A stretch of DNA of 39,014 nucleotides from Candidatus Iainarchaeum sp. (GTDB lineage Archaea > B1Sed10-29 > WALL01 > JAGHAM01). Shown piece by piece: positions 9,933 to 34,666 of this stretch; the first letter of the stretch is position 1, and every line of letters starts with the position of its first letter. Position numbers and translations under genes: made by a program. Location: positions 1 through 39,014 of the forward strand of contig JAGHAM010000019.1 of assembly GCA_021161465.1 (NCBI GenBank). Direction: 5' to 3'. The notes beneath the pieces are model-generated. The model was not told where the DNA came from and searched no databases. It saw only the letters and a program-made list of their open reading frames with translations.

Positions 9933-10217
9933 GGATAGTGGGCCGTAGTCTGCCTTTTGTTTTAGGTGGCATTTGACTAAGCGGCGTATGCGCCTTGCAC
10001 GGTTGGGCCTGCGGGCACGTTTCATTCCCTCAAACACCAGCTCGGTTGACTTCATTGCTTTTCCCCGTGGGCAAAGCCAGGGGAACGGCGAGTGAAGGAT
10101 TACGTTTCTGCTCCCGCATGGGGGCTCGCGCCCCAACATGGCCTACTAAACGCCCGTGGGCAGAACTTCCTCAGTTCGGACCCCGAAGGGGAACCGTTAG
10201 CCACTCACCCACTATCC
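9933..10217 (-). ncRNA. rnpB: RNase P RNA, type A
   Basis: This is the catalytic RNA that trims tRNA 5' ends. The outermost helix P1 is a perfect 10-bp pair between the RNA 5' end (GGATAGTGGG, from 10217) and 3' end (CCCACTATCC, to 9933). Conserved regions read in order on the minus strand: GAGGAAGTTCTGCCC (CR-I), GCAGAAACG, GAGGGAATGAAACG (CR-IV) and ACAAAAGGCAGACTAC (CR-V). TCTGCC in CR-I pairs with GGCAGA in CR-V to make P4. The length of about 285 bases suits an archaeal type-A RNA. A TATA-like CTTAAAAAC lies about 26 bases upstream. Open reading frames across this segment are shadows. Confidence 0.92.
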
Positions 10218-14031: not shown

Positions 14032-14123
14032 ATTGCGCTCCGGAGCACGACGGCGCGCTCGTTGTTCATATCACGATTTTGCTCGCGATACTCATACAAT
14101 AAAAATGAATGGACCCACTGGGA

Positions 14124-14170
14124 TTCCCCGTCCGCAGCTGCGAACCTGGTCGGAATTACTTCCGCATTTA
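14124..14170 (-). other. Second tRNA-Ala intron, in the T loop
   Basis: A 47-base insertion separates TTCAAA from T-CCCAG of the T arm. The join is ambiguous by a few bases (about 57/58 to 60/61); 59/60 matches an intron site known in some Thermoproteales. It contains a hairpin CGGAA-GTAA-TTCCG and the self-complementary GTTCGCAGCTGCGGAC. I could not build a strict BHB from the flanking exons. TTC:GAA pairing beside the T stem allows only a relaxed motif. Confidence 0.75.
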
Positions 14171-14192
14171 TTTGAACCCAGGACCTCTCGCG

Positions 14193-14312
14193 CTCTTGAA
14201 CCGTGCGCTTGAGCGAAGCGAAACGCACAAAGCGTTAACCGATTTTGCGGCCACACCTGGTGCTCTCACGCGTAGCGTGAGACACCTAAAGCGTTAACCG
14301 ATTTTGCGGTTA
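14193..14312 (-). other. Canonical tRNA-Ala intron at 37/38
   Basis: The BHB is complete: anticodon stem CTCGC:GCGAG, central helix CTTG:CAAG, bulges CAT (5') and AGC (3'), outer helix AACCG:CGGTT. Cuts between the second and third bulge bases leave A37 and C38 and remove 120 bases. The intron holds two strong hairpins, one near CTCACGC-TAC-GCGTGAG and one GTGCGTTT...AAGCGCAC. Confidence 0.88.
14229..14309. repeat. 22-base direct repeat inside the tRNA-Ala intron
   Basis: A 22-base sequence (AAAGCGTTAACC followed by GATTTTGCGG) occurs exactly at 14229-14250 and 14288-14309, 59 bases apart. The 37 bases between are mostly a hairpin. The two flanks outside the repeat differ, so it is not a simple duplication of the whole intron. 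Confidence 0.9.
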
Positions 14313-14350
14313 TGCAAGGCGAGCGCTCTTCCAGCTGAGCTATGGGCCCA

Positions 14351-14389: not shown

Positions 14390-14678
14390 TAAAGGAGGTG
14401 ATCTAACCGCAGGTTCCCCTACGGTTACCTTGTTACGACTTAACCCTCCTCACAAGGCTCGGATTCGAATTAGCCCAAAGGACTAAACCTCATCCAGGCC
14501 TCACTCGGATGGTTTGACGGGCAGTGTGTGCAAGGAGAAGGGACGTATTCACCGCGCGATAATGACACGCGATTACTAGGGATTCCATCTTCATGAGGGT
14601 GAGTTCCAACCCTCAATCCGAACTACGCAACGGTTTATGGGTTTGGCTTCTCCTTTCGGAGTCGCATCCTATTGTCCG

Positions 14679-15296
14679 TTACATTGTAGGCCGCGTGTAG
14701 CCCAGGAAATTCGGAGCCTCAGCCGTCCTGAAAATCTTCCTACTCGGATGCCATTTAGGATGACACAAAAAAATCATGCTGAGAAAGCACTTAACGTCGT
14801 TTTGCCTATATAAGCTTACGACATGTGAGCCATCCTTCCTATTGTGGCGTCTCGGCTTCAGGTGCATGCTCTGAAGCGAGTTGTAGACAAAGTTGATGAT
14901 ATCATAGGATTCCATCTCAAGACGGATCCTTAGATACCTACCCTTATCTAATTCTAGCCACCCCTCTGCATCGAAGAGACCACCAAGGAAAAAAACTTGC
15001 TTACTATCTGCAACTATTGGTGCAGATTGAAAAGTTTTGTTTCCTCGTTTTATGCCATATCCAACTGTTAAATCTTCCACCAGCTTTTTAGACCTCACAG
15101 CACATTTCCATACATTCGCACTGCGATCAAAAAATACTGACGGTTTATATCCTAAGGATTGGAACGATGTATACAGAAATTTAGCAAAAGGCTTAGTTGC
15201 TGTGAAAGCAAGGACGCGATTTGCATTTCTTTCTACATGTCCATCTCCAAGGATGTAACCAGCTAGATATGCTTTTCTCTCTTCTGCATAGGGCAG
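14679..15296 (-). CDS. LAGLIDADG homing endonuclease in the 16S intron
   Basis: The frame encodes a two-motif LAGLIDADG enzyme of about 205 residues: LAGYILGDG (residues 11-19, catalytic Asp18) and LGGLFDAEG (residues 104-112, catalytic Glu111). Both acidic residues are intact, so it may be active against intron-less 16S genes. No ATG, GTG or TTG precedes the first motif. The first standard start (GTG at 15098) would delete it. I propose CTG at 15296, which has GGTGGGGG six bases upstream. The frame is open from 15362. On linear pre-rRNA it runs through the 3' splice site and stops in the second exon at 14679. In the circular excised intron it would stop five codons past the join. Confidence 0.8.
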   Translation of the reverse strand: MPYAEERKAYLAGYILGDGHVERNANRVLAFTATKPFAKFLYTSFQSLGYKPSVFFDRSANVWKCAVRSKKLVEDLTVGYGIKRGNKTFQSAPIVADSKQVFFLGGLFDAEGWLELDKGRYLRIRLEMESYDIINFVYNSLQSMHLKPRRHNRKDGSHVVSLYRQNDVKCFLSMIFLCHPKWHPSRKIFRTAEAPNFLGYTRPTM

Positions 15297-15383
15297 ATTT
15301 AACCCCCACCAAAAATTACTGATGGAAAGTTTAAATCTGTTTTCAATAGGGGTTTCCGAGATTCATCAGATTTTCGCGGACGT
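14718..15383 (-). other. Archaeal BHB intron in 16S rRNA at the E. coli 1205 position
   Basis: The exons join as GGTCAGTAT|GCTCCGAA, matching the usual archaeal GGTCAGTATGCCCCGAA. The BHB has outer helix CGTCC:GGACG, central helix CAGT:GCTG, and bulges ATA and AGG cut between bases two and three. These give exactly the boundaries 15384|15383 and 14718|14717. The helix continues inward with GAAAATCT:AGATTTTC. Position 1205 is a known intron site in Thermoproteales 16S genes. The length of 666 is a multiple of three. Confidence 0.9.
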
Positions 15384-15479
15384 ATACTGACCTACCGTCG
15401 CCCGCTCCTTCCTCTGGTTTATCACCAGCAGTCCCCCTAGAGTGCACCTCCTCAAACAAGAAGGTTAGCAACTAGGAGC

Positions 15480-15512
<33 letters not shown>

Positions 15513-16181
15513 ACCTCACGGCACGAGCTGACGGTGGCCATGCACTACCTCTCAGCGTGTCAGGTAAGCCCTTCGGACTGACCATCATTCTGCTGTCTTC
15601 CCTGGTGAGTTGTCCGGCGTTGAATCCAATTAAACCGCAGCCTCCACCCCTTGTGGTACTCCCCCGCCAATTCCTTTAAGTTTCAACCTTGCGGTCGTAC
15701 TTCCCAGGCGGCTGGCTTAACAGTTTCCCTCCGGCACAGCATAACCTCGTGGGTTATGCCACACCAAGCCAGCATAATTTACTGCCAGGACTACCCGGGT
15801 CTCTAATCCGGTTTGCTCCCCTGGCCTTCGTCCCTCACCGTCGGGTACGTTCTAGTTGGACGCCTTCGCCACCGGCGGTCCTCCTGGGATTATAAGATTT
15901 TACCCCTACCCCAGGAATACCTCCAACCTCTCCCGTCCCCAAGCCCAAAGGTCTCCCTAGCACTTCCAGACGATTAAATCGCCGGATTTCACCAGGGACT
16001 CTTCAGGCAGGCTACGGACGCTTTAAGCCCAATATACGCGAACACCACTCGAGCTGCTCGTGTTACCGCGGCGGCTGGCACGAGTCTTACCCAGCCCTTA
16101 TTCATGGAGCTTTTTACACTCCACAAAAGACTCCGTGAGGAGTCACTTGGAGTCCCCTTATCACGCTTTCGCGCATTGTAA

Positions 16182-16212
<31 letters not shown>

Positions 16213-16528
16213 ATGGTCCTTGTCTCAGTACCATTCTCCGGGCTCTTGCTCTCACAACCCGTATGGATCTTAGGCTTGGTGAGCCATTACCTCACCAACA
16301 ACCTAATCCACCGCAGACTCATCCTGGAGCGCCCGAAGGCTTTCAAAAATGGGACGTTCCAGTGCCCATTTTCTATAGGATATTAGCCTCAGTTTCCCGA
16401 GATTATCCCCTACTCCAGGGTAGATTATCCACGTGTTACTGAGCCGTACGCCGAGTGCCGAAGCACTTTGACTTGCATGGCTTAGTCGAACTCCAAAAGC
16501 GGTATTCTCCAGCAGGATCAACTGGAAT

Positions 16529-21139: not shown

Positions 21140-21161
21140 TGGTGCCAGCAACCTGGCACCA
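21140..21161 (+). terminator. Hairpin downstream of the acyl-CoA synthetase
   Basis: TGGTGCCAG (21140-21148) and CTGGCACCA (21153-21161) form a perfect 9-bp stem with a CAAC loop, 14 bases after the stop. No T-run follows directly, so it may stabilise the 3' end rather than terminate. Confidence 0.6.
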
Positions 21162-25291: not shown

Positions 25292-25312
25292 GTTGGTGGC
25301 TAGGCCACCAAC
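25292..25312 (-). terminator. Terminator hairpin of the thermosome gene
   Basis: GTTGGTGGC (25292-25300) and GCCACCAAC (25304-25312) form a perfect 9-bp stem with a 3-base loop, four bases beyond the thermosome stop. On the minus strand it is followed by a pyrimidine-rich run (CCCCCTTCTTTT). Confidence 0.65.
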
Positions 25313-33106: not shown

Positions 33107-33394
33107 ATGGTAGTGAAGAAAGAAGACATTATAAATGCCCTTGAAAATGTTATGGACCCAGAGATAGGATTGAATGTGGTTGACATGGGGTTAATATATG
33201 GCGTTTCTATTGATGGAAACAAAGTTGAGGTTAAAATGACTTTAACTACACCAGGGTGCCCATTGGCAGCTATGCTTGTGGATAAAGTAGGTGAGGCCGT
33301 TAGTAGTGTGCCTGGTGTGACTAAAACGGAGGTTAAGCTTGTGTGGGATCCGCCATGGACACCGGAGATGATGAAGAACCCTAAGGAGAAATGA
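33107..33394 (+). CDS. MIP18/SufT-like (DUF59) Fe-S assembly protein
   Basis: The 95-residue protein is a single DUF59 domain: DIINALENVMDPEIGLNVVDMGLIYGV, VEVKMTLTTPGCPLAAML with the conserved Cys51, and VKLVWDPPWTPEMM. MIP18/SufT proteins help load or mature Fe-S proteins. ATG at 33107 follows GGTGGTAAA. It is co-transcribed with the cysteine-containing regulator and lies opposite the feo-isc operon, so both sides of the control region serve iron and Fe-S metabolism. Confidence 0.9.
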   Translation: MVVKKEDIINALENVMDPEIGLNVVDMGLIYGVSIDGNKVEVKMTLTTPGCPLAAMLVDKVGEAVSSVPGVTKTEVKLVWDPPWTPEMMKNPKEK

Positions 33395-33451
33395 GTAGGG
33401 ATTAACTCAGTTATAAAAACCTTTAAATATATTTGAATGTAAAAATAATTT

Positions 33452-33597
33452 GGGTGTCGAGCAGTCTCAGGACAGGGGGGTAAGACGCCATTATAAAATT
33501 ATGAAGCACCTCGTTGCCTTAAATACCCGTGCTCATGATTTTGGTGCTTATATGTCCTTGGACAATTCACACCTAGAGTGGGGTTAATCCCCACTCT
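33452..33597 (+). ncRNA. Putative structured non-coding RNA with terminal hairpin
   Basis: The 390 bases between 33395 and 33784 have no gene. A TATA-like TTTAAATATA (33422-33431) predicts a transcript from G33452. The RNA has nested long-range helices: GGGTGT (33452-33457) with ACACCT (33569-33574), AGGACA (33469-33474) with TGTCCT (33553-33558), and AAGCACC (33504-33510) with GGTGCTT (33543-33549). A 9-bp hairpin AGAGTGGGG-TTAAT-CCCCACTCT (33575-33597) with a following T-run ends it. I tested 5S, SRP and tRNA patterns and found no match; an H/ACA guide RNA is a weaker possibility. Confidence 0.55.
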
Positions 33598-33671
33598 TTA
33601 GTTCTTCATTGGTTATCTTAGTATCAAACCACATTTCAATATCTGAGGCTAATCCCCACTCTTTAGTTCTT
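33585..33671 (+). repeat. 22-base direct repeat downstream of the putative RNA
   Basis: A 22-base sequence beginning TAATCCCCACTC occurs exactly at 33585-33606 and 33650-33671. The second copy lies within another stem system: ATCTGAGG (33641-33648) with CCTCAGAT (33704-33711), and GGCTAA (33647-33652) with TTAGCC (33685-33690). This may be a decayed second terminator or RNA copy. Confidence 0.75.
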
Positions 33672-33784
33672 TGAGCATTGCGGCTTAGCCTTAGGGGGTA
33701 CTACCTCAGATTCAATACTTCTTCAATTCTTCATGCATTGCATCCTGGGAAAAGATTATAAACTAAAAAGGAGTATGCCTAACT

Positions 33785-34666
33785 ATGAGAGAATACTTCC
33801 ATGATATAATAAAGCCAGCAGTTAAAGCCTTCAAGCCAGGTGAGGTGGTATTGTCTTTCCTGTTAACCCTTGTCCCAATAGTGAATATATTCACAATCCC
33901 TGGTTATTTCTTTAACTCGGCTGGTTATATTGCCAAGGGAAAAAGTAGGTTGCCTAAAGTCCGCTTAAGCAAGGCATTCTATACAACACTTTATGTCTAC
34001 GCTACTGTGTTCCTTCTAGGGATATTCGGCTGGCTCATTGTCATAGCAATAATGTCACCAGCCTGGCTTCTACTCTTGATTTCAAAGCAGATGGCTTTAT
34101 CCAATCCAATAGTGTCCTTCTTAAACTTAGTTCATTCTTTGTCAAGCTTCACCGCTGTCTTTGTTTTTCTGTTTTTGATTTTTATCTTGCCAATAGTGCT
34201 GGTTAGGCTTACGATTTACAGGTACTTCTCAAGGATTCTTGATTTCAGGCATATCTTAAGGCTTGTACTGAGCAAGGAGTACATGATATCTTTTATTGTT
34301 GTGAGTTTAGTCTCATTATTGCTCCTGAGTACTGGTATGGTTGCATATGGGAAGGTGGCTACTTTTCTTGGAAGCACGCCATATGTGGACGTAAACGGTA
34401 CTCCAGAGCTGGAGCAGGCCATATTAAACCCCATGGAAACACAATGGAACTACACTATCCTAAACCCAATGGAGAAAAAGTTTGACGTAGGCGCTTTTTC
34501 GTTTCTTTATTTCATCGATGCTACGTGCTTTTTTATAGTGATAGCTATTGCTTCAGTGCTTTTTGGCAGGAGCTTTTACATACTTGAAACCGAACATAAG
34601 ATTGACCACATCCCAAAGCATGCAAAGAGTGAAATAAAGCCGTTAAAAACATCAGAGTTAGAATAA
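33785..34666 (+). CDS. Polytopic membrane protein, DUF4013-like
   Basis: The 293-residue protein has about six hydrophobic segments, including SFLLTLVPIVNIFTIPGYFF and a long central pair, in the style of archaeal DUF4013 proteins, whose function is unknown. Between the last helices, an exposed stretch carries an internal repeat (ILNPMETQWNY then ILNPMEKKF). The tail is lysine-rich. I start at the ATG at 33785, about 26 bases after ATTATAAAC (leaderless). An AAGGAG nearby also precedes a 9-codon frame from 33775, which I do not call. Confidence 0.65.
   Translation: MREYFHDIIKPAVKAFKPGEVVLSFLLTLVPIVNIFTIPGYFFNSAGYIAKGKSRLPKVRLSKAFYTTLYVYATVFLLGIFGWLIVIAIMSPAWLLLLISKQMALSNPIVSFLNLVHSLSSFTAVFVFLFLIFILPIVLVRLTIYRYFSRILDFRHILRLVLSKEYMISFIVVSLVSLLLLSTGMVAYGKVATFLGSTPYVDVNGTPELEQAILNPMETQWNYTILNPMEKKFDVGAFSFLYFIDATCFFIVIAIASVLFGRSFYILETEHKIDHIPKHAKSEIKPLKTSELE

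Follow-up and report, generated by a model that had tools for sequence, protein, structure and literature searches.

Positions 33415-33606 of the window, which here means the whole 39,014-nucleotide contig (C33) that was analysed, appear to form an independent gene whose product is a small, structured non-coding RNA that most likely acts in trans while bound to protein, a reading to which we assign a probability of roughly two in three. The best reading of the extent of the RNA is from 33452 to about 33600. Few RNA genes have been mapped in uncultured archaea of small genome size, and sequence families tend to miss those that are specific to a lineage. In the present case, the strength of the promoter, the start spacing and the fold, all established by computation, jointly pick out a lineage-specific RNA gene and supply predicted ends for it. 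The gene was previously unrecorded and is strongly promoted, but its kind is not surprising, because structured RNAs without known relatives are to be anticipated in archaea that have been little studied. If it is real and conserved in the genus, it would represent one more unknown stable RNA for an organism whose genome measures about 1 Mb.

The genome is archaeal, 976 kb in size, distributed over 40 contigs and 93% complete, and the window contains its archaeal genes for 16S rRNA, 23S rRNA and RNase P RNA. The phylum comparison set consists of 19 genomes in total, i.e., 18 besides the source genome (G000); the same family is represented by one other genome (G001) and the genus by no second species. 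From the small size of its genomes, the phylum may belong to DPANN and could be Iainarchaeota (Diapherotrites). The RNA locus is flanked by a small SufT-like gene and a DUF4013 gene (Table 1). A preliminary description of this DNA had taken the 390 bases between these two neighbours (33395-33784) to be free of genes, and indeed no ORF of at least 60 aa is present between the SufT-like stop at 33394 and the DUF4013 ATG at 33785. As the extent of the structured element, however, the 390 bases hold only for about 33415-33606. The remainder, tested as 33598-33747, folds barely better than its shuffled versions (z -1.2, with 29 of 200 shuffles equally good), and for this reason, together with the absence of a promoter, a second RNA there was rejected.

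Table 1. Features of the RNA locus and its surroundings, with examples of interrupted tRNA genes elsewhere in the genome
Feature	Position	Strand	Remarks
SufT-like FeS-assembly gene (PF01883), small	stop at 33394		upstream neighbour of RNA locus
BRE/TATA promoter AAAAACCTTTAAATAT	33415-33430	+	scored by a model that left out the RNA locus
Rod-shaped RNA body, eight stacked helices	33452-33574	+	folding; helices checked base by base
Closing helix, 5' arm GGGUGU	33452-33457	+	partner ACACCU, 33569-33574
Second long-range helix, 5' arm AGGACA	33469-33474	+	partner UGUCCU, 33553-33558
Inner helix, 5' arm AAAUUAUG	33496-33503	+	partner CAUGAUUU, 33534-33541
Perfect GC-rich hairpin (9 bp), terminator-like or protective of the 3' end	33575-33597	+	abuts rod
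T-rich tail TTAGTTCTT, in which the RNA probably ends	33598-33606	+	8 T in the 12 bases around
Separate DUF4013 promoter	33748-33763	+	30 nt before ATG 33785; 84th-91st percentile
DUF4013 membrane-protein gene	ATG 33785	+	downstream neighbour of RNA locus
Intron-bearing tRNA loci, examples	C2:~9610, C12:~4299, C12:~8706, C13:~4910, C35:~57807

The promoter is among the strongest in the genome. It was scored with a 16-base model that was derived by expectation-maximisation from 301 upstream regions, using neutral seeds and leaving out the RNA locus, and that converged to an archaeal BRE/TATA motif (AAAAAnnTTTATATA-like). Under this model, the site at 33414/33415 outscores 96% of the best ORF-upstream sites, and only 27 of the 1.95 million positions in the genome reach its score. 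Counted from the first base of the TATA core, the first G (G33452) lies about 30 nt downstream, compared with 29 for the SRP RNA and 32 for the RNase P RNA. The earlier claim of a TATA box set before a G that begins a helix was confirmed. Independent archaeal RNA genes in general have a BRE/TATA of their own some 25-30 nt ahead of the 5' end, and the RNA locus conforms to this. The predicted transcription start from this spacing is G33452, with which the closing helix begins. Strong promoters without an ORF after them include those of 16S, 5S, RNase P, tRNA-Met, tRNA-Cys and tRNA-Leu as well as the RNA locus, in a list that came from an earlier model seeded with this very site, the unbiased rank being the 27 of 1.95 million. 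More strong promoters with folded sequence and no called ORF were observed on C23 (- strand, 6202), C4 (+, 42825), C8 (+, 7930) and C29 (-, 28296). These four loci are without an Rfam match at the gathering cut-off and are candidate orphan RNA genes.

The RNA body is a rod whose first four helices are GGGUGU/ACACCU, GAG/UUC, GUCU/GGAC and AGGACA/UGUCCU, while the last four are GUAAG/CUUAU, CGCCA/UGGUG, AAAUUAUG/CAUGAUUU and GCAC/GUGC; in DNA letters, the further-in helices include CGCCA/TGGTG and AAATTATG/CATGATTT. The helices form one continuous rod with a mean pair probability of 0.94 over the pairs of the minimum-energy fold, and the three nested long-range helices that had been noticed before are parts of it. 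The rod is still present in the fold computed at 70 C. Dinucleotide-shuffled versions of 33450-33600 fold at -39.0 +/- 4.0 kcal/mol, whereas the native sequence reaches -60.5 kcal/mol (z -5.3), and none of 200 shuffles is as good. The rod without the terminal hairpin (33452-33574) has a z of -3.7, again with 0 of 200 shuffles. The opposite strand of 33450-33600 has a weaker fold, at -48.3 kcal/mol (z -3.6). Part of the difference comes from seven G-U pairs that favour the fold on the + strand only, and the structure thus suits an RNA made from the + strand better than it suits a DNA palindrome. In a comparison of 989 intergenic windows across the genome, 33450-33600 ranks about 11th by fold, and the windows that outrank it mostly overlap intron-bearing tRNA loci. 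In a cruder, GC-matched intergenic scan, the rod ranks no higher than the top 4%, against a background that is full of rRNA and tRNA.

The final hairpin of the preliminary description is perfect in all 9 bp. It has the sequence AGAGUGGGG-UUAAU-CCCCACUCU, with arms at 33575-33583 and 33589-33597, and perfect 9-bp GC-rich hairpins outside ORFs are found at only six distinct places in the whole genome. The tail that follows has no T run longer than 3; long T runs after ORFs are not enriched in the source genome. The 3' end of the RNA is probably located at about 33597-33606. Two further members of the six hairpins are also in the window, at 21140-21161, just past the end of an ORF, and at 25292-25312. 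There is also a 28-nt direct repeat (93%) between 33579-33606 and 33644-33671, at a spacing of 65, by which the 3' half of the hairpin and the tail occur once again downstream, inside a second, weak hairpin at 33641-33711.

Searches of the phylum's 18 other genomes with the DNA sequence, and with a covariance model of limited power for distant relatives because a single sequence went into it, returned no homologue of the RNA. By these sequence comparisons, the RNA is likely missing elsewhere in the 18 genomes. In G001 and G009, the SufT-like gene leads straight into an overlapping ORF, which leaves no space for the RNA at that place. Searches of phage and plasmid collections returned short chance matches only, and viral contigs contained no exact match to the core; with the locus present as a single copy in the genome, mobile or viral DNA was rejected as an explanation. 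The failure to find a homologue in the 18 genomes means that there is no sign of long-term conservation, which counts against an independent RNA gene. Together with the lack of homologues in the phage, plasmid and viral collections, it would suit a chance or decaying fold, such as gene debris, that happens to lie behind a fortuitous promoter, and the adjoining direct repeat, as a local rearrangement, points in the same direction. Such an origin is nevertheless unlikely, as a top promoter, an exact start spacing, a strand-biased fold with a z of -5.3 and a rare perfect hairpin would all have to coincide.

DUF4013 is the next gene downstream and on the same strand, and the intervening hairpin could be a terminator, as might be expected of a structured leader, either a 5' UTR or a riboswitch-like element acting in cis. 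However, DUF4013 carries its own BRE/TATA 30 nt ahead of its ATG, which argues that the RNA is not its leader. Moreover, about 190 nt without special folding separate the hairpin from DUF4013, and an Rfam riboswitch match is absent. A leader is thus improbable. The strong promoter could also serve a gene for a small protein, since a frame stays open through the rod, starting either from a TTG (33450-33587, 45 codons) or from an ATG (33500-33587, 28 codons). However, a stop-free frame of 56 codons is not rare, with a chance of about 7% per frame for random codons by our own estimate, and the start would fall inside the closing helix. The product has no Pfam match and no relative in phages or in the 18 genomes of the phylum, and a coding role is quite unlikely. 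Small ORFs on both strands were rejected for want of Pfam matches and relatives.

The RNA does not correspond to a known family. The Rfam 15 covariance models gave no match in the region at gathering cut-offs, and up to E = 10 there were only three matches, far below cut-off and none on the rod, in agreement with the earlier comparison by eye. A missed SRP, RNase P or 5S RNA was rejected, as all three are located elsewhere in the genome: the SRP RNA (RF01857) at C2:15166-15435, the RNase P RNA (RF00373) at 9934-10216 of the window and the 5S RNA at a site recognised by eye. In this genome, the SRP and RNase P RNAs are similar to the orphan RNA in promoter type and start spacing, but it matches neither.

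Since introns break up so many of the tRNA genes here, the possibility of a disrupted tRNA was put to a direct test. Spliced alignment to the tRNAs of relatives scored 11-13, compared with 10-13 for shuffles and 34 for a positive control, and a tRNA, whether intact or intron-interrupted, was rejected. ARAGORN, used without a positive control on 9,452 single-intron excisions per strand, found no tRNA either. The intron-containing pre-tRNAs of this genome are likewise long, folded and missed by standard finders, but the orphan RNA differs from them in having no tRNA exons, its spliced alignment being at the level of shuffles. A box C/D guide was rejected since the C box RUGAUGA and the D box CUGA are both absent from 33452-33600. 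Antisense pairing of the apical region with mRNA starts was also rejected, the best duplex (-29.8 kcal/mol) falling within the range of shuffles (-25.1 to -30.5 kcal/mol), and the neighbouring genes were low in the ranking.

An atypical H/ACA pseudouridylation guide would be made up of the closing helix, a pocket formed by CGAGCAGUCUC/UGGACAAUUC, AGGACA/UGUCCU as the upper helix and an AGA box at 33575. In archaeal H/ACA RNAs, the ACA/ANA box is found 14-16 nt from the target site, and a kink-turn or kink-loop with sheared G-A pairs is located 5-6 nt above the pocket (PMC7991803). The orphan RNA resembles these guides in its single hairpin and in the pocket-sized weak zone between two helices, with an ANA 16 nt below, a pocket-to-box distance inside the archaeal range; however, the kink-turn or kink-loop (PMC7991803) is missing, and the loop found there sets GGGGG against A and contains no opposed GA dinucleotides. 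Furthermore, both pocket strands pair with one another, and the best rRNA target score is at the level of chance (8.2, compared with a mean of 8.3 for shuffled guides, 57% of which are as good or better). The box geometry is itself frequent by chance, with 0.85 such candidates per shuffle. An H/ACA guide is therefore very unlikely.

An independent structured RNA gene fits the evidence better than a leader, a guide RNA, a coding gene or debris. The preliminary description had proposed an independent stable RNA of about 120-150 bases, a reading that is now well supported, if not proved, for about 125-155 bases by the promoter, the spacing, the fold, the strand bias, the hairpin with its tail and the lack of an Rfam family, all of them read from the DNA. 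For its transcription, ends, protein binding and function, we infer the following pathway. Binding of TBP/TFB to the strong BRE/TATA (33415-33430) would be followed by initiation by RNA polymerase at or adjoining G33452. The transcript would fold into an extended, imperfect rod that its 5' end closes (GGGUGU/ACACCU), behind which the 9-bp hairpin may mark or protect the 3' end, ahead of the T-rich tail. The RNA would then work in trans in a protein-bound form, either as an RNP scaffold or as a protein-binding regulator. This last role is a best guess, arrived at by exclusion only, because signals of a guide, of coding and of antisense pairing were not found and the RNA does not lead into the next gene.

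Among known systems, archaeal orphan intergenic sRNAs, structured small RNAs of unknown function, are a close parallel as a general kind. The predicted RNA described here is like them in its own archaeal promoter, its intergenic position, its compact, stable fold and its lack of both an ORF of at least 60 aa and an Rfam match. It differs in that it would form one continuous rod closed by its own 5' end and that no sequence relative was found. A bolder and rather unlikely proposal is that it is the first example of a new class of stable RNAs in archaea, rod-shaped, protein-bound and made at housekeeping level, perhaps with a role in RNA processing in a lineage with intron-riddled tRNA genes.

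Only 8 tRNAs are found by Rfam in the source genome (6 by ARAGORN), compared with 13-44 in the 18 relatives. Spliced alignment to the tRNAs of relatives revealed many more tRNA genes, each interrupted once or twice by an intron (Table 1), the intron borders being those of a simple alignment of which splice motifs are not part. Their insertion sites are the anticodon loop and, in a great many cases, the T loop, where they follow GTTC. Near-identical T-loop introns are present in different isotypes (Ser and Lys; Phe and Leu), which looks like intron spread and suggests that the introns are mobile. Large-scale transposition of tRNA introns was reportedly described in Thermoproteales by Fujishima and colleagues in 2010. 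In the window, a tRNA-Ala(GGC) gene with two introns, which interrupt its anticodon loop and its T loop, is located between 16S and 23S at 14110-14349 (- strand) and is missed by both ARAGORN and Rfam. The adjacent 16S rRNA gene at 14393-16528 (- strand) spans 2136 bases, compared with 1478 model positions, and thus probably carries one or more introns.
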